Part shown: positions 18,242-29,178 of the stretch, piece after piece
How the letters are laid out: each line of letters begins with the position of its first letter
Position numbering within the stretch: the stretch's first letter is position 1
NCBI RefSeq assembly: GCF_030382115.1
Contig: NZ_JAUDRJ010000003.1
Coordinates: 3,194,813-3,235,622, forward strand
Source: Nostoc sp. GT001
GTDB lineage: Bacteria; Cyanobacteriota; Cyanobacteriia; Cyanobacteriales; Nostocaceae
Length of the DNA stretch: 40,810 bases
Reading direction: 5' to 3'
Translations under genes and position numbers: made by a program
The notes under the pieces: model-generated
The model's input: the letters and a program-made list of their open reading frames with translations, nothing else
What the model was told of the DNA's origin: nothing
Database searches by the model: none

Positions 18242-19285
18242 TTAAGCTACTTGGCAGATAATCTGAAACTCACCGATAACATCATCGTTGTCCATCAGAT
18301 AGAATTGCTGGTCAAGCAAGGTTTTTATGGTTGCCTGACGCACTTCAACGCCTGCATCGTAGGCAACAAAACTGTTTTTTTCGTAAGAATACAAAATTAG
18401 ATTTTTCCGGTCTTCTTCAAGCGAGGCTTGCTCTACTAAACTGGGTTTCAGGAAATTCTCTACTGCTATCTGATGCTTGCACTTTGTCCCTCGATGACGA
18501 CAATCAGCACACCCGCACCGTGAGTTTGGATCTTGATGCTTTGGGCGGACAGTGTAGCGGTTTTGGTTGGTGGAGTTCTCCACCACAAATTCGTCGCCCT
18601 GCTGTTCAAGCACAGTGATTGCTTGGGCGCGTGGGGAACGTACTGCTGATTCCAACTTTTGCTTTTCTTGTATCTTTGCAACAGCTACAATTGTCTCTTT
18701 AATCATTGCTCCAAAGTCTTCTATCAGTCGCACGCCTGTAAGGTTGGATTTGTAGCCGCCACTAACTCCAACAATTAGGATTTGGATGTCATCAACAACC
18801 GCCTCCCATACACCCCCGCGTATGGTCTGCCCGATTTTTTCAAATGCGATCGCTTCCGAGTCACATTGCTTTGGCATTGAGGAAGCATCACGCAATCCGC
18901 GATCGTATCCACTGCGATAGCAAGGATCTATTGATTGCATTTCTAGCCCGTTGGTAGCGTCCTGATAGCCCTGCTGATTGTTTTGTAATCGTTGTAAATC
19001 GGGCGCAATTTCCTCTGCCTGCTCCTCAACAAATGCTTCGAGTTCAGCCTGAGCAACATCTTGCGACTCGAAAATACTCGCTACCGCAACGCTTACATCT
19101 ATCTGGCGGAATCCGCCAGATAGCTTTTCAACCTGCGATTTTTGATACTCAACGATCGCATTAGCCCAGACATCTTTATTGCGTTTGTCACCTTCTGGAG
19201 CAACGCCTAACGAAAACGCGATCGCTTTGATTTCACCTAACTTGAGTTCTTGAAGCTGTTGAACAGTGTAGATTGAGTGTGTCAT
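18242..19285 (-). CDS. SWIM zinc-finger domain protein
   Basis: The start chosen is ATG 19285; the frame is open 40 codons further upstream, but that part looks non-coding. The product has 347 aa. An N-terminal helical module (about 3-45, TVQQLQELKLGEIKAIAFSL) is followed by an acidic linker. A SWIM zinc-binding motif lies in the C-terminal third (CGCADCRHRGTKCKHQIAV, the CxCx(n)CxH pattern), a domain that binds DNA or partner proteins. Residues LSGGFRQI near 54-61 are encoded by dispersed hairpin copy 3, inserted in frame. It is the first gene of the minus-strand block and is divergent to the RHH gene. Confidence 0.75.
   Translation of the reverse strand: MTHSIYTVQQLQELKLGEIKAIAFSLGVAPEGDKRNKDVWANAIVEYQKSQVEKLSGGFRQIDVSVAVASIFESQDVAQAELEAFVEEQAEEIAPDLQRLQNNQQGYQDATNGLEMQSIDPCYRSGYDRGLRDASSMPKQCDSEAIAFEKIGQTIRGGVWEAVVDDIQILIVGVSGGYKSNLTGVRLIEDFGAMIKETIVAVAKIQEKQKLESAVRSPRAQAITVLEQQGDEFVVENSTNQNRYTVRPKHQDPNSRCGCADCRHRGTKCKHQIAVENFLKPSLVEQASLEEDRKNLILYSYEKNSFVAYDAGVEVRQATIKTLLDQQFYLMDNDDVIGEFQIICQVA
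19099..19123. repeat. Dispersed hairpin repeat, copy 3 (inside the SWIM gene)
   Basis: CTATCTGGCGG / CCGCCAGATAG with loop AAT, identical to copy 1. It adds LSGGFRQI in frame to the SWIM protein without breaking it. Confidence 0.9.
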
Positions 19286-19382: not shown

Positions 19383-19480
19383 AATGTAATGCATTTGCAG
19401 TGCAATTGTCAATAATTGCATGACAAAATTCCCAAAGCCTAGTTATATAGCTATAATCAAGCCAAGGTAATGCAATGCAA
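19383..19480 (+). promoter_or_regulatory. Promoter region of the RHH gene with ATTGCA/TGCAAT motifs
   Basis: TATAAT (19452-19457) lies inside the near-palindrome TTATATAGCTATAA. Around it, ATTGCA/TGCAAT hexamers occur several times between 19387 and 19480, including TGCAATGCA at about 19471. The same TGCAATGCA sits in a second promoter at 19872. A regulator such as the RHH protein encoded in between could bind both (inference). The ribosome site is ACGGAG-like and lies within the early codons, so initiation at 19486 may be weak. Confidence 0.4.
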
Positions 19481-19485
19481 AAAAT

Positions 19486-19749
19486 ATGAAGCTAACGGAG
19501 CAAATGACTTTTCGCACGACAGAAGAAATTTTGTCAGCTATCAAAAAGCTAGCCAAGAACTCTGACAAAAGCGTTTCTCAGATAATCAATGATCTACTGG
19601 CAGCAGCCTTGGGAATTGACGATGAAAGTAAAGATGGAAGCGACGAGCTTGACAGAATACGCCAGGAAATGCGCCAGGAAATACAGCAAGTGCGGACAGA
19701 ACTTGAACAGCTATTTTTCCAAAAACAGCAGGAAGCGCTAAAAAAATAG
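19486..19749 (+). CDS. Ribbon-helix-helix (CopG-like) protein; likely -1 frameshift extension to 19850
   Basis: The zero-frame product (87 aa) has a CopG/Arc-type N-terminus: the strand MTFRTTEEILSAIKKLA, then helices SVSQIINDLLAAALGI, then a charged coiled coil (RQEMRQEIQQVRTELEQL). The frame stops at TAG 19747 just after a run of seven As. In the -1 frame the coiled coil goes on (KIESLREENQSLRQQRDRIL, then KMLKEDPP...) for 34 more residues, ending in a TAA at 19848 inside the gene's terminator. The slippery site and downstream stem-loop are listed separately. The longer form (121 aa) would have a stronger oligomerisation coil. A simple indel in the A-run is the alternative. Confidence 0.8.
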   Translation: MKLTEQMTFRTTEEILSAIKKLAKNSDKSVSQIINDLLAAALGIDDESKDGSDELDRIRQEMRQEIQQVRTELEQLFFQKQQEALKK

Positions 19750-19782
19750 AGAGCCTGAGAGAAGAAAATCAATCTCTCAGGC
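19740..19782 (+). promoter_or_regulatory. Candidate -1 programmed frameshift signal
   Basis: The slippery heptamer A AAA AAA lies at 19740-19746, in the correct phase (zero-frame CTA AAA AAA TAG). Six bases later a perfect 10-bp stem GCCTGAGAGA (19753-19762) / TCTCTCAGGC (19773-19782) with a 10-base loop begins. A purine run AGGAAG at 19730-19735 could act as upstream stimulator. A -1 shift continues an uninterrupted coiled coil to TAA 19848. Confidence 0.65.
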
Positions 19783-19818
19783 AGCAGCGTGATCGCATTT
19801 TAAAAATGCTTAAAGAAG

Positions 19819-19856
19819 ACCCGCCTTCGTCAAACGACAAGGCGGGTTAATTTTTC
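19819..19856 (+). terminator. Rho-independent terminator of the RHH gene
   Basis: ACCCGCCTTCGTC and GACAAGGCGGGT pair (one unpaired base) around AAAC, followed by TTAATTTTT. The stop of the -1 frame (19848-19850) falls within its 3' arm, so the extended reading frame ends with the transcript. Confidence 0.8.
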
Positions 19857-19871
19857 TAAATCTATTAACCA

Positions 19872-19899
19872 TTGCACTCTAATTGCAATGCACTATAAT
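19872..19899 (+). promoter_or_regulatory. Sigma-70-type promoter ahead of the 20140 gene
   Basis: TTGCAC (19872-19877), 16 bases, then TATAAT (19894-19899). TGCAATGCA fills the spacer, matching the motif in the RHH promoter region. The following 240 bases to 20139 hold no gene, only two dispersed repeats. Confidence 0.5.
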
Positions 19900-23764: not shown

Positions 23765-26700
23765 TTAGGGTAATGTCCCCTTGTCACCTTTAACTTTATT
23801 CGCCAACTCTTTCGCCCTCGCCTGGGAATCAAACTTTAATTTATTATCCCAATGCTGTGCTTTGTTGAACTTTTCAACAGCGCCATTAATATCATCATTT
23901 CGTGCTAACTTCTCACCTTGGATGACTAATACTGTAGCACCTTGCGCCAAACGAGATGGAGTTTGGCATGATTGCAACTCTTCTAACACTTCTGGATGGC
24001 CAATGAAGTAATTATTCAGCAAGTTGCAACCACTGTGTAATAAATTATCGAAATCCAAATCCCATAAAATTATTGTTTTGTCAGCACTAGCAGAAGTTAA
24101 CTGTTGTCCATTGGGGCTGTAAACCACACTCTCGACTACATTACTATGACCAGTCAGAGATTTGAGAAGTTGACCACTGCTGACATCCCAGATTTTGATG
24201 GTCTTGTCATCACTAGCAGAAGCTAACTGTTGTCCATTGGTACTGAAGACCACGCTATTGACCCAACCAATATGACCAGTCAGCGTTTTGAGGAGTTGAC
24301 CACTGCTGACATCCCAGATTTTGATGGTATTGTCATCACTAGCAGAAGCTAACTGTTGTCCATTGGGGTTGTAGGCGACGCTATTGACCGCACTGCCATG
24401 ACCAGTCAGCGTTTTGAGGAGTTTACCACTGCTGACATCCCAGATTTTGATAGTCTTGTCATCACTAGCAGAAGCTAACTGTTGTCCATTGGGACTGTAG
24501 ACCACGCTAAAGACAGCACTGCTATGACCAGTGAGTGATTTGAGGAGTTTACCACTGCTGACATCCCAGATTTTGATAGTCTTGTCAAGACTAGCAGAAG
24601 CTAACTGTTGTTCATTGGGACTGTAGACCACACTAATGACCGAATTGCTATGATCAGTCAAAGTTTGGAGGAGTTTGCTGCTAGTGACATCCCAGATTTT
24701 GATGGTCTTGTCATAACTAGCAGAAGCTAACTGTTGTCCATTGGGGCTATACACCACGCTACTGACCAAATCGCTATGACCAGTCAGAGATTTGAGAAGT
24801 TGACCACTGCTGACATCCCAGATTTTGATGGTCTTGTCATAACTAGCGGAAGCTAACTGTTGTCCATTGGGGCTGTAGACTACGCTAATGACCGAATTGC
24901 TATGACCAGTAAGCATTTTGAGGGGTTGACCTCTGCTGACATCCCAGATTTTGATAGTGTTGTTGTCAAGACTAGCGGAAGCTAACTGTTGTCCATTGGG
25001 GCTATAGACCACACGACTAACCGCATTGCTATGACCAGTCAGAGTTTGGAGGAGTTTGCCTCTGCTGACATCCCAGATTTTGATGGTCTTGTCAGCACTA
25101 GCAGAAGCTAACTGTTGTCCATTGGGGCTGTAGGCAATGCTATTGACCCAAATACTATGACCAGTCAGGGGTTTGAGGAGTTTGCCGCTAGTGACATCCC
25201 AGATTTTGATGGTCTTGTCATAACTAGCAGAAGCTAATTGTTGTCCATTGGGGCTGTAGACCACGCTACTGACCAAATCGCTATGACCAGTCAGGGTTTT
25301 GAGGAGTTTGCCGCTAGTGACATCCCAGATTTTGATGGTCTTGTCATAACTAGCAGAAGCTAACTGTTGTCGATTAGGGCTGTAGACCACGCTAACGACC
25401 TCACTGCTATGACCAGTCAGGGTTTTGAGGAGTTTGCCGCTACTAACATCCCAGATTTTGATGGTCTTGTCATCACCAGCAGAAGCTAACTGTTGTCCAT
25501 TGGGGCTGTAGACTACGCTAATGACCGAATTGCTATGACCAGTCAGAGTTTTGAGGAGTTTGCCGCTACTAACATCCCAGATTTTGATGGTCTTGTCAGT
25601 ACTAGCAGAAGCTAACTGTTGTCCATTAGGGCTGTAGACCACGCTATAGACAGACTCGCTATGACCAGTTAAGGTTTTTATGAGTTTACCACTGCCGACA
25701 TCCCAGATTTTGATAGTTTTGTCATAACTGGCAGAAGCTAACTGTTGTCTATTGGGACTGAATGCGACGCTAATGACCCCATTGCTATGACCTTCTAAAG
25801 TATTTACCTCTATAGGACGGTTTTCTTTCTTCTCATTTGGCTGTAAGTAAACTGCTTGCCGTAAAGTTGCTACAGTTTGCATTCGGGTATCGCTTCTGTG
25901 CTGTGCCCAAATTGTATGCTTGAGTTTATTACTTGCCTTTAAGGCTGTTATTAAAGCATCTGAATATTGTCCAGAGGCAAAAAAGGCTTCAGAAGAGTTA
26001 TTGATGGCGTTAATTAGCTGAACATTTGCCTCTACTGTCCACTGGAATGTTACCACTGCCAACCCAGCAAATCCTAAACCTGCGGAGATGGAACTAAAAA
26101 GGGCGCGTTTGAGAAAGTTATTTAGTTTCGCTTCACTCAGTTTTCTTTGTTTTCGTTCCTTTTCCAGTTCTGCCATTACCTGCTTTAACTTCGGTTCTTG
26201 TTGCTGGCGGATAAAGGCGGCAATGTAGTCATGTACCAGTTGATAATGGTCAGCCGGGTTTTCTGGTAGCAAAACCACTAAGCCGGATTGAACAAAAATT
26301 TCTAACACTAAATCTAATTGACTTATTTCAGAAGCTTGTTTCTCCCTAGCTTCTGACCCTCCCTGAAGTTCTGAGCGACGAAAGCCGCGGCTCAGACTTA
26401 CTTTTGCCTGCTGCGATCGCCTTAAAAAAGATGTAAAAAGAATAAAGCCCCCTTTTTTAAGAGGGATTGGGGCAATCTCGAAGAAGTACGGGAGCAAATC
26501 GCGTTCCAACTCAGCGCGAGTCTTTAGAGGGCGAGTTCCTTTTTCATCGGTCAGCAAATAGAGTAATATGTCTGCTGCTTGCTGATTCTCAACACCGCAA
26601 TCATTAACAACTTCATGCAAATAACGTTTAACCAATTCGTCCTTAGTACCACGCTGCCGATATTCTGCCAGAGTTGTAATATTCTCCGTTTGCAGTTGCG

Positions 26701-27490
26701 CCCCCACAACCTGCAACTCAATAGGACGAACTTCACCCAATTCTCTGGCTAAATCTTGTACCAGTTGTTCAACTAAAGCTGATTCTAAACGAAAACTAGT
26801 ATTTTCAGTTAAACGCTGAATAATTGACTTTGTATCAGCAGGTGAAAAATTCCCCAACTTGTAAAGCACATTATTACTGAGAATGTCATTGCCAATAATC
26901 TTGAGACTGGACAAATCATTGCACTCCAGCAAGTAATGAATGTAATCCACCCGCAGCGATAAGATAACTTTCACCGATAGAACATTCAAACACTCTCCCA
27001 AAAACTCAAAGAATTGCTTTCTTTGTGCAGGTTCGGTGTAAACAAAGAAAAATTCCTCAAATTGATCAAAAATTAGCACTGTGCGGAGGTTACGCTGTTC
27101 GTTTTTGCGCAGTTGGGTGATTAGGAAGTTAGGAGTTAGGAGTGAGGAGTGGGGATTTTGAGTATTGGAGGTCGAAGTTTTAAGTTCTGAGGTCGAAGTT
27201 CCGAGTTCTGAGGCTGAAATTTTGAGTTCAGGGGTCGAAGTTTTGAGTTCCGAGGTCGAAGTTTTGAGTTCAGTGGTCGAAGTTTGGAGTTCTGAGGTCG
27301 AACGTTGAGGTTCTGAAGCGGAAGTTTTGAGTTCCGAGGTTGAAGTTCCGAGTTCCGAGGTTGAAGTTCCGAGTTCCGAGGTTGAAGTTCCGAGTTCTGA
27401 GGCTGAAAGTTGAGGTTCTAACTCTCCCCATTCTCCAGTTCCTCCCAAAAGCCTCCCCAACTCTTCCACCCAGTTGGTGTAAACGCGCAT
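23765..27490 (-). CDS. STAND NTPase C-terminal part: AAA core, TM helix and 14 WD40 repeats
   Basis: The protein (about 1241 aa from ATG 27490) lacks a Walker A. It starts inside the STAND ATPase fold (MRVYTNWVEELGRLL), has a tandem heptad insert (about 25-108), Walker B at about 138-146 (LIFDQFEEFF), the rest of the NTPase domain to about 430, one membrane helix (about 464-484) and 14 WD40 repeats (about 564-1152) that would form two seven-bladed propellers. A GTG at 27496 also reads in. The missing Walker A is at the end of the overlapping gene 27490-29178, so the two frames are one broken or split gene. Confidence 0.85.
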   Translation of the reverse strand: MRVYTNWVEELGRLLGGTGEWGELEPQLSASELGTSTSELGTSTSELGTSTSELKTSASEPQRSTSELQTSTTELKTSTSELKTSTPELKISASELGTSTSELKTSTSNTQNPHSSLLTPNFLITQLRKNEQRNLRTVLIFDQFEEFFFVYTEPAQRKQFFEFLGECLNVLSVKVILSLRVDYIHYLLECNDLSSLKIIGNDILSNNVLYKLGNFSPADTKSIIQRLTENTSFRLESALVEQLVQDLARELGEVRPIELQVVGAQLQTENITTLAEYRQRGTKDELVKRYLHEVVNDCGVENQQAADILLYLLTDEKGTRPLKTRAELERDLLPYFFEIAPIPLKKGGFILFTSFLRRSQQAKVSLSRGFRRSELQGGSEAREKQASEISQLDLVLEIFVQSGLVVLLPENPADHYQLVHDYIAAFIRQQQEPKLKQVMAELEKERKQRKLSEAKLNNFLKRALFSSISAGLGFAGLAVVTFQWTVEANVQLINAINNSSEAFFASGQYSDALITALKASNKLKHTIWAQHRSDTRMQTVATLRQAVYLQPNEKKENRPIEVNTLEGHSNGVISVAFSPNRQQLASASYDKTIKIWDVGSGKLIKTLTGHSESVYSVVYSPNGQQLASASTDKTIKIWDVSSGKLLKTLTGHSNSVISVVYSPNGQQLASAGDDKTIKIWDVSSGKLLKTLTGHSSEVVSVVYSPNRQQLASASYDKTIKIWDVTSGKLLKTLTGHSDLVSSVVYSPNGQQLASASYDKTIKIWDVTSGKLLKPLTGHSIWVNSIAYSPNGQQLASASADKTIKIWDVSRGKLLQTLTGHSNAVSRVVYSPNGQQLASASLDNNTIKIWDVSRGQPLKMLTGHSNSVISVVYSPNGQQLASASYDKTIKIWDVSSGQLLKSLTGHSDLVSSVVYSPNGQQLASASYDKTIKIWDVTSSKLLQTLTDHSNSVISVVYSPNEQQLASASLDKTIKIWDVSSGKLLKSLTGHSSAVFSVVYSPNGQQLASASDDKTIKIWDVSSGKLLKTLTGHGSAVNSVAYNPNGQQLASASDDNTIKIWDVSSGQLLKTLTGHIGWVNSVVFSTNGQQLASASDDKTIKIWDVSSGQLLKSLTGHSNVVESVVYSPNGQQLTSASADKTIILWDLDFDNLLHSGCNLLNNYFIGHPEVLEELQSCQTPSRLAQGATVLVIQGEKLARNDDINGAVEKFNKAQHWDNKLKFDSQARAKELANKVKGDKGTLP
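24034..25801 (-). repeat. 14 tandem WD40 repeats, 126 bp each
   Basis: Each unit encodes 42 residues of nearly constant sequence (YSPNGQQLASAS, DKTIKIWDVSSGKLLKTL, TGHS). The main variation is in the two or three residues after GHS (NGV, ESV, NSV, SEV, DLV, IWV, NAV, SAV). DNA is almost identical between units, pointing to recent expansion or gene conversion. Assembly of this stretch from short reads would be unreliable. Confidence 0.9.
27166..27418 (-). repeat. About 12 tandem 21-bp repeats coding for SELGTST-type heptads
   Basis: The units encode ELGTSTS, ELKTSTS, ELKTSAS, ELQTSTT and the like. They interrupt the STAND ATPase between Walker A and Walker B and keep the frame. Copy-number change would not shift the frame. 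Confidence 0.9.
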
Positions 27491-29178
27491 TACCACCTAG
27501 GCAAATAATCTTGAGTGCCGATTGCTTTATTCTTTAAAGCTGGCATTAGTCCCGCATTTACCAGGGAACTTTTGCCTACACCCGATTGCCCATGAATTAC
27601 TATCAACTTATAATCAGGGCGACCCATGCGTTCAATTAAACGTTCTACATCCAAAAGACGACCAGATGCAGCAATTTCTGGGGCAATATTTCCTTGGGGA
27701 GAGTTTGAGCGCAATGTCTCTACAAATGCCTGTTTTGTTGCTTCTAACCTACCCGCACCAATAAAAGCCCGCAAGCCAAATTGCTGTTCAATGGAACGCC
27801 GCTGCTGTTTAATTTTGTATGCTTTGAGATATTTTTTCTGTTCAAAATAAAGCTGCTGCAAAAATCTGAGAATATCCAAGTAAAGCCTGACATCTTCTAG
27901 GGGATTACCCACATCTTTAGCAGTTTCTAAGCTGAGGGTTGCCTCTTGAATTTGACCGAGATGGTATTGAGAACGACCTAGAATAAATCGATACAAGCTC
28001 AAGTCTTTTGATTTTAAAACCCTTTCGGAAATATCAGATAAAATCCCTGATATATTAGCTGATTCCAAATCTGGAATCGTAGCAAAAACTTCTAATGCTT
28101 GTTTAACTAACTGATTTGCTTTAACCCAGTTTTTTTGAGCTAAAGCCACCTCAGCTAAAAAACCATAATCTTTGGCTATTTCCCTTGGCTGCTTGTTATT
28201 TTGATGGATTAATAAAGCTTGTTCTGAAAGACTATGTAATATTTCCCACTTTTTCAAGTCTCGCAAAATATCACCAAATTTAACTACTGAACTAGCAATT
28301 AAATCTGGACTTTTAAACTGGCTAATAAAATTTATATACTCTTGAAGATAATGCCAAGTTGTCTGCCAGTCTTGAGAATTGATATCTTGATGCTTCAAAG
28401 CTTTGAGATAATAGCAAAAGCTAATCTCAGCGAGGATTTTTACCTGTCTTTCTAAATTATAACTTTGTTGCCAGAGCTTATAAGCTTTGTGATAATGTTG
28501 TAGTGCCGAATCTTTCTGATTGTTTATCTGTTTAACAAAACCTAAGAGAGATTCTAAGTTAGCTTGAATTTGTAAATTATAAACATCTGGCTTGTTGAGT
28601 AAATATCTTTGCGCCGCTTCTAATTCATTTTCCAGCTTAATATATACATCGAAGCTAAATTTTAAGTTATTACTAAACCACTGATTAGCTGTTTCAATAA
28701 TAAAATCTACTAATTGTTGGGTTGATATATCAAAATTTCTCGTAGTTGCCCAACTTTCCAAATCTGGTGCAAGCTGTATTAGTTGCTTGTAGATTTCATC
28801 GTCAATCCACAACACTAAGGGAAAAGCAAAATTCTTGCGAAACTCCTCCCGCACCTGATTCGCAGAAGTTAACATCACAGATAAATTCTGCACTGATTCC
28901 AAACCCACAACCATCACACAGGCTGGTATTTCTTCGCCGAATTCTTCCTGAATGGTAGTATAAAGAGTTCTGTTTGATTCCTGCACTGCCAAGATACGAA
29001 TTTCGACTTGGCAAATTTCTTGCAATTTAGAGATTAAGCGATCGCGCAAGCTAGCATAATTACACCGTGCCAATATCAGCTTAAACTGTCCCACAGAGGA
29101 TTCAATCGCCCAAGCTAATTGTTTCAGAGAGCGCTCGTTGTTTACATGGTCATCTTCTGGTGATTGCGAGTCTGCCAT
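27490..29178 (-). CDS. STAND NTPase N-terminal part: sensor-like domain, TPR region and Walker A
   Basis: The protein (562 aa) begins with a cyanobacterial STAND-associated domain (about 15-165: RSLKQLAWAIESSVGQF, ILARCNYASLRDRL, SANQVREEFRKNFAFPLVLW), followed by a helical TPR-like region (about 190-480). Walker A is at 530-538 (GQSGVGKSS), after which it reads 24 more residues and stops in DYLPRW. Relatives continue as LPVVMRVYTNW, which is exactly what the next frame supplies. The TAA overlaps the next ATG (TAATG), so a 2-base insertion (AG in CCTAGG) or a 1-base loss split one gene, with possible coupled translation. Confidence 0.82.
   Translation of the reverse strand: MADSQSPEDDHVNNERSLKQLAWAIESSVGQFKLILARCNYASLRDRLISKLQEICQVEIRILAVQESNRTLYTTIQEEFGEEIPACVMVVGLESVQNLSVMLTSANQVREEFRKNFAFPLVLWIDDEIYKQLIQLAPDLESWATTRNFDISTQQLVDFIIETANQWFSNNLKFSFDVYIKLENELEAAQRYLLNKPDVYNLQIQANLESLLGFVKQINNQKDSALQHYHKAYKLWQQSYNLERQVKILAEISFCYYLKALKHQDINSQDWQTTWHYLQEYINFISQFKSPDLIASSVVKFGDILRDLKKWEILHSLSEQALLIHQNNKQPREIAKDYGFLAEVALAQKNWVKANQLVKQALEVFATIPDLESANISGILSDISERVLKSKDLSLYRFILGRSQYHLGQIQEATLSLETAKDVGNPLEDVRLYLDILRFLQQLYFEQKKYLKAYKIKQQRRSIEQQFGLRAFIGAGRLEATKQAFVETLRSNSPQGNIAPEIAASGRLLDVERLIERMGRPDYKLIVIHGQSGVGKSSLVNAGLMPALKNKAIGTQDYLPRW

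Follow-up and report, generated by a model that had tools for sequence, protein, structure and literature searches.

A family of small ribbon-helix-helix (RHH) genes in Nostoc-like cyanobacteria carries a conserved signal at the end of its zero reading frame (a slippery heptamer, a 6-nt spacer, and a stem-loop) that is best read, with a probability of roughly 0.92, as programmed −1 ribosomal frameshifting that would yield a short protein and a second one extended by a leucine zipper. Comparison among relatives strongly supports the frameshift itself, while what we say of its efficiency and biological role is inferred.

The window locus

The window—the whole 40,810-nt stretch of Nostoc sp. GT001 that was analyzed, which sits within a 7.29-Mb contig—holds a plus-strand ORF at 19486..19749 that encodes an 87-amino-acid (aa) protein and ends CTA AAA AAA TAG, with its stop at 19747-19749 (an 81-aa version is also predicted, beginning with the ATG at 19504). 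The A run at 19740-19746, exactly seven A long, is the slippery heptamer A_AAA_AAA, and relatives have a slippery heptamer at the same place. It is followed by a 6-nt spacer (19747..19752), whose first bases are the zero-frame stop, and by a stem-loop at 19753..19782, which we propose as frameshift stimulator on the basis of its fold, pair counts, compensatory changes, and a covariance model. The arms of this stem (19753-19762 and 19773-19782) form 10 of 10 Watson-Crick pairs around a 10-nt loop (19763-19772), with a folding energy of −16.3 kcal/mol and a z score of −4.2. In the −1 frame (19746..19850), the sequence IESLREENQSLRQQRDRILKMLKEDPPSSNDKAG (19746-19847), a 34-aa leucine-zipper tail, is followed by TAA at 19848-19850, giving predicted products of 87 aa (short) and 121 aa (long).

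All of this agrees with the earlier note on this DNA, which had described the heptamer, the immediate stop, the 6-nt spacing, the 10-bp stem with its 10-nt loop, the 34 codons to the TAA at 19848, and the two product lengths, the last of which are correct on translation. The note had further placed the −1 stop inside a transcript terminator. The TAA lies at the 3′ foot of a strong terminator-like hairpin (19818-19848; −21.2 kcal/mol, z −6.4), which it overlaps and which is followed by a U tract (whole feature 19818..19855, plus strand); a simple terminator scan (loops of 3 to 8 nt, plain stems) listed none at this hairpin. Among 143 related loci, 121 have a perfect hairpin of at least 6 bp across or directly next to the −1 stop.

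The signal across relatives

Relatives of the window locus are cyanobacterial. The heptamers were counted in loci that hold the tail motif, with no condition placed on the heptamer: 207 raw hits contained 150 unique ones, in 143 of which the zero-frame ORF is 55 codons long or longer. These 143 loci represent 124 distinct upstream proteins (compared over the last 60 residues), and the figures cover the loci fetched. Every one of them carries one of a few purine heptamers 6 nt before the stem, most loci having been fetched with a model that contains the heptamer and the spacing: G_GGG_GAA in 89, A_AAA_AAA in 23, G_GGA_AAA in 22, G_GGG_GAG in 8, and G_GAA_AAA in 1. The window's A-run class is thus a minority (23/143) among three main slip-site classes. 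The remaining 7 unique hits comprise 3 loci with short ORFs and the same heptamers, 3 with other letters, and 1 on the reverse strand. An earlier matrix search had given 260 hits, of which 129 were set aside—mostly reverse-strand readings of the palindromic stem, with some short ORFs or other heptamer letters—leaving 131, or 120 after removal of duplicates. Because the filter for these 120 loci itself demanded purine heptamers, the claim about the heptamer rests on the 143-locus count.

Other samples of the family gave the same picture. Twelve loci from the tail search that lie outside the places listed for the signal model (L296-L304 and L306-L308) all have a family heptamer, and three tail-search hits that escape the tail motif have AAAAAAA or GGGGGAA with unchanged spacing. 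The four members on IMG/VR contigs carry GGGAAAA, AAAAAAA, GGGGGAA, and GGGGGAA; the protein of the second is identical to that of locus L079. All three main classes (A_AAA_AAA, G_GGA_AAA, and G_GGG_GAA) occur in the genome of the window itself, where the other copies follow RHH-like genes with very different N-termini and the heptamer keeps its place. On a weakly resolved tree of 127 zero-frame proteins, all of them short, at least nine changes of heptamer class are needed. The combination of a family heptamer, 6 nt, and a perfect stem of at least 8 bp has 119 unique occurrences in the 627,686 bases fetched (203 loci, some overlapping), all at family stems and none elsewhere, and the corresponding numbers in three Markov-1 controls of this DNA were 1, 0, and 1; as the loci were fetched for holding the family, only the absence elsewhere and in the controls is informative.

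The stem is preserved as well. Pairs 1 to 9 are formed in 139 to 143 of the 143 loci and pair 10 in 112, with two-sided changes at pair 5 (7 A-T, 1 C-G), pair 8 (2 G-C), pair 9 (4 A-T), and pair 10 (3 C-G). At locus L298, the weakest of four stems folded (z −2.4), the in-stem stop is changed from TGA to TAA and the pair is preserved, and locus L313 has a C-G pair in place of G-C. The zero frame stops inside the 5′ arm, three residues beyond the heptamer, in 113 of the 120 loci, and the window's copy is one of six with a stop directly after the heptamer. Upstream of the heptamer we found no consistent signal of a Shine-Dalgarno-like stimulator (46, 11, 45, 6, and 11 of 143 in five successive intervals), and a comparison with Rfam gave two weak matches only, far under gathering scores. 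The comparison of homologues, which the earlier note had proposed as a check, came out in its favor: relatives with the zero-frame ORF retain a slippery heptamer, the 6-nt spacing, and the stem, and the case named by the note as refuting, homologues with a single continuous frame and no heptamer, is absent from the 150 unique tail-motif hits.

The −1 tail

Over 49 pairs of relatives, each sequence being used once, the tail past the stem has a pN/pS of 0.32 when read in the −1 frame, and the other two frames give 0.86 and 1.49. Codon positions 1, 2, and 3 of the −1 frame show 127, 82, and 206 differences. More distant pairs only (47) give 0.36 in the −1 frame and 0.94 and 1.33 in the others. 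This substitution pattern indicates that the −1 tail is under purifying selection as a protein, the constraint being weaker than in the 150 nt upstream, where pN/pS in the zero frame is 0.19 (44 pairs).

The selected sequence is that of a zipper. The earlier note had proposed that the −1 frame continues the coiled coil, and indeed the tail extends the zero-frame coil with its register unbroken. L-x6-L is present in all 43 representatives, which were chosen by clustering the 120 loci, four loci having been excluded by hand. An LREENxSLR core is kept in the tails, whose length is 26 to 41 aa in 116 of 120 loci. Longer −1 tails of 52 to 57 aa, with a common LK[VM]G[RK]Q stretch, are found at L310, L096, and L173, and at L315:3121-3417, in a genome outside the taxonomic family (G308), the −1 extension is 99 aa long with a weak match to a MerR-like helix-turn-helix (E 0.0054, under the cut-off). 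A Pfam scan of the window's 34-aa tail at E 1 gave no transposase family, unlike what would be expected of an IS3-family transposase.

Distribution

With a cut-off of E 0.01, a covariance model of the signal (43 positions, built from 11 sequences) matches 101 of 217 genomes of the taxonomic family, in 32 of 56 genera, and in one genome (G476) at least 10 separate places are among the matches listed. A profile of the tail only, blind to heptamer and stem, matches 92 of the same 217 genomes. The 116 genomes with no match to the signal model argue that the system is dispensable. In a 388-genome draw of the class, 18 match the signal model, the strong matches all lying in the family; weak ones fetched from outside it (L267-L275, L311, L312, and L314) have no tail motif, and there is one clear member beyond the family, in genome G308 of the same order (L042 and L315). 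A loose first pattern, used only to find the family, had matched 47 of 386 genomes of the phylum, mostly at unrelated stems. The exact hairpin pattern recovers at least 80 stretches from species genomes, 79 of 80 being titled cyanobacteria—nearly all, we presume, of Nostocales genera; a match in Acidobacteriaceae (L221) has no slippery heptamer and was judged to be due to chance. Two or three different members occur inside a single 3-kb stretch at L054, L058, L062, and L151.

Mobile DNA also holds members. Five plasmid records match the family, two of them typed conjugative, and their features are named hypothetical proteins; a phage collection and a plasmid search with the GGGAAAA type gave no match. 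On a plasmid of Calothrix sp. NIES-4105, the zero frame reads GTA AAA AAA TAA, the −1 frame encodes a tail of this kind, and some stem pairs are changed; the annotated gene is the zero-frame one. In the three plasmid regions examined, this one included, only the zero-frame product is annotated (the gene table being incomplete by its own note).

Protein identity and neighborhood

The short product looks like an RHH protein. In the window protein, the predicted DNA-binding domain occupies residues 1-48 (19486..19629; AlphaFold helices 13-26 and 30-42, with PDB rows covering residues 2-48) and is followed by a predicted coiled-coil helix of residues ∼51-87 (19636..19746; AlphaFold helix 51-86, with a heptad register over the 43 representatives). 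The similarity to RHH proteins, by profile and by predicted fold, bears out the identity given in the earlier note and supports an RHH fold; across the family, the zero-frame products resemble RHH proteins of many subfamilies. A protein search at E 0.001 returned two proteins, the window's own and one 87-aa relative that likewise ends ALKK, and the precomputed database label of the 81-aa version is PF19891. PADLOC gave a small number of scattered matches for family members.

In 113 of 120 loci, the short product has a C-terminal Ala, with Ala (79), Val (15), or Ser (10) as penultimate residue, and such ends could resemble an ssrA-like degradation tail. The final Ala is, however, forced by the stem, and the window product lacks it; a tmRNA scan of one short locus found nothing.

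The upstream region offers candidate control elements. A weak sigma-70-like promoter match (10 of 12 positions) lies at 19429..19457 on the plus strand; the stretch has 3 matches of this quality, and shuffles average 1.3. A TTGCAATGCA-like element, a possible operator, lies at 19470..19479 (plus strand), with similar ones at 19395-19404 and 19883-19892. The window has 8 TTGCAATGCA-like matches against 5.8 expected, a number reached by 23 of 100 shuffles, so that only their clustering near the gene is suggestive. Repeated upstream 8-mers are particular to some subfamilies: GGGATAAC recurs in one of them (15 of 18 loci) and GTACTAAC in a further two (7 of 7 and 6 of 6 loci), in counts that ignore relatedness of the loci, and two of nine clusters have no repeated upstream 8-mer in more than two loci. 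By their recurrence, these 8-mers look like candidate operators of several subfamilies.

A gene transcribed divergently (18242..19285, minus strand; no Pfam match) belongs to a loose single-linkage cluster that is found upstream of 88 of 120 family loci. Divergent genes are varied, several having an AQAEL stretch and then a QA-rich one, and two that were scanned have no Pfam match. Farther away in the window, a long minus-strand ORF (23765-27496) has many repeats ending IKIWDV, which we take to be WD40-like.

These observations bear on a reading in which the frameshift is real and the proteins are accessory factors of mobilization (relaxosome) or antitoxins instead of transcription regulators, the zipper serving plasmid-origin assembly or partner binding. 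Among 30 aligned members, 11 match the Pfam NikA-like model (best E 1.6e-07), and in NCBIfam 7 match RelB/ParD-type antitoxin models and 3 the MobA model of plasmid mobilization, all weakly; the two plasmids typed conjugative point the same way. Yet the window protein has no NCBIfam match at 0.01 and stays under the curated cut-off of every Pfam model (DUF6364, 26.8 bits versus 27.3; RHH_1, 15.3 versus 20.5), no toxin was recognized among the neighbors (clusters were made for the 120 loci and three neighbors were Pfam scanned with no match, most neighbors matching nothing), and the operator-like 8-mers upstream of several subfamilies count against either role. We consider mobilization or antitoxin function unlikely.

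Alternatives to frameshifting

The −1 frame could also be a separate small zipper peptide, translated by re-initiation or internal initiation with GGGGG as Shine-Dalgarno sequence. Sharma et al. suggest, in a passage of PMC4066793, that G_GGG and the following G acted in this manner in reporters, and a Leu codon stands 10 nt past the G run, being CTG in 135 of the 143 loci. That codon is nevertheless CTA or CTC in 8 loci, and the A7 class has no G run at all. From the last upstream stop to the twelfth codon from the tail motif's first Leu, the −1 frame has no ATG, GTG, or TTG in 112 of 143 loci (ATG occurs in 22, and GTG or TTG in 9), and the register of the coil is unbroken across the frame junction. 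A separate peptide is on these grounds very improbable.

Nor do we give much credit to transcriptional slippage, in which RNA polymerase would add an A in the A7 run and so join the frames in part of the mRNA. The window does have seven consecutive A, and for Nostoc IS elements slippage has been suggested at runs of 8 to 10 A (PMC1088944). But the A7 heptamer occurs in only 23 of 143 loci, the remaining heptamers have no long homopolymer, and run lengths are nearly fixed (7 A in 22 of the 23 loci and 8 in one; 5 G in 97 of 97). Slippage, moreover, requires no stem at a fixed 6-nt distance downstream. Heptamer classes and run lengths together make it a poor common cause and speak also against an A-run indel; slippage is very improbable. 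Last, we reject a sequencing error or a decayed gene, in which a one-base indel would have split a continuous ORF, as a homopolymer A7 in a single assembly might suggest. Heptamer, spacing, and stem are conserved, the two frames stand in an identical relation at all 143 loci, which come from many assemblies, both frames are under selection, and no in-frame fusion of the two occurs among the 150 unique hits. The only one of these hits whose −1 frame stays open far upstream (L005, minus strand) is the reverse strand of the palindromic stem.

Proposed mechanism and significance

Under programmed −1 frameshifting, ribosomes on the RHH mRNA would be made to pause by the stem-loop 6 nt downstream while A_AAA_AAA occupies their P and A sites. 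Some of them would slip back by one base, bypass the immediate stop, and append the 34-residue leucine-zipper tail in register with the zero-frame coiled coil. One gene would thus give proteins of 87 and 121 aa with a common DNA-binding domain and different oligomerization. We infer production of both forms, at some ratio, with different oligomer states and hence probably different occupancy of DNA. On a bolder and rather improbable view, the cassette would be a common module by which DNA-binding proteins that differ in operator specificity acquire one zipper core. With at least 10 paralogues in one genome and a conserved LREENxSLR core, long forms could then pair across paralogues, and plasmids and integrated elements would carry a bZIP-like combinatorial network of regulators under frameshift control.

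The slip sites differ in how well they suit this mechanism. Two of the main heptamers, A_AAA_AAA and G_GGA_AAA, obey the X_XXZ_ZZN rule and fall in the V_VVA_AAR group, which a passage of PMC4066793 names among the most efficient in E. coli. The majority heptamer, G_GGG_GAA, does not obey the rule. It is not a member of the X_XXZ_ZZN set assayed in E. coli, in which, according to the same study, cognate A-site re-pairing was best, and its A-site tRNA would re-pair non-cognately, which counts against a frameshift. There are, on the other hand, about a thousand annotated phage frameshifts at GGGGGAA, mostly untested, that are explained by G:U re-pairing in PMC10885494, and the heptamer has been proposed for tail genes of corynephage phi16 (PMC5506516).

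Our work extends the likely cases of bacterial −1 frameshifting by a large family of small DNA-binding proteins from Nostoc-like cyanobacteria, with a zipper tail that is absent from the annotations examined. Its many natural variants of slip site and stem, including three classes that coexist in a single genome, lend themselves to comparative study of frameshifting by cyanobacterial ribosomes. The family also makes one ask how having a DNA-binding protein in two forms would benefit a bacterium.

Comparison with known systems

In IS911/IS3-family elements, the shift region lies within the zipper heptads. OrfA and OrfAB of these elements are likewise produced by programmed −1 frameshifting, OrfA being a regulator whose DNA-binding and leucine-zipper parts are common to the long product (PMC2909936), and their commonest heptamers are A_AAA_AAG or A_AAA_AAA (PMC4066793). 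The extension is, however, a transposase catalytic domain there and a short zipper here, and DNA binding is by a helix-turn-helix in the elements and RHH-like in our family. The dnaX gene likewise combines a slippery heptamer with a downstream hairpin to make two proteins per gene (PMC3711429). Its shift leads to the shorter product (PMC1088944), in contrast to the longer one in the RHH family, which also differs in having no consistent upstream Shine-Dalgarno-like element. The phage frameshifts at GGGGGAA share the heptamer of our majority class (PMC10885494), and their proteins are unrelated.

Among titles and abstract openings of the open-licence literature there is no description of a frameshifted zipper tail on RHH or CopG proteins, and those on ribosomal frameshifting in cyanobacteria or Nostoc do not describe the family. 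The portions searched of the recoding literature, among them most of a 2016 review (PMC5009743), gave no passage relevant to it. Such organisms do have other known frameshifts: that review devotes a section to −1 frameshifting of 50% efficiency in carbon fixation, and chlD is the subject of a paper. The short form is alike in fold and profile to Arc/CopG/NikA-type RHH proteins and RHH antitoxins, and the family would represent an established mechanism in a new context, since we found no such description for these genes.
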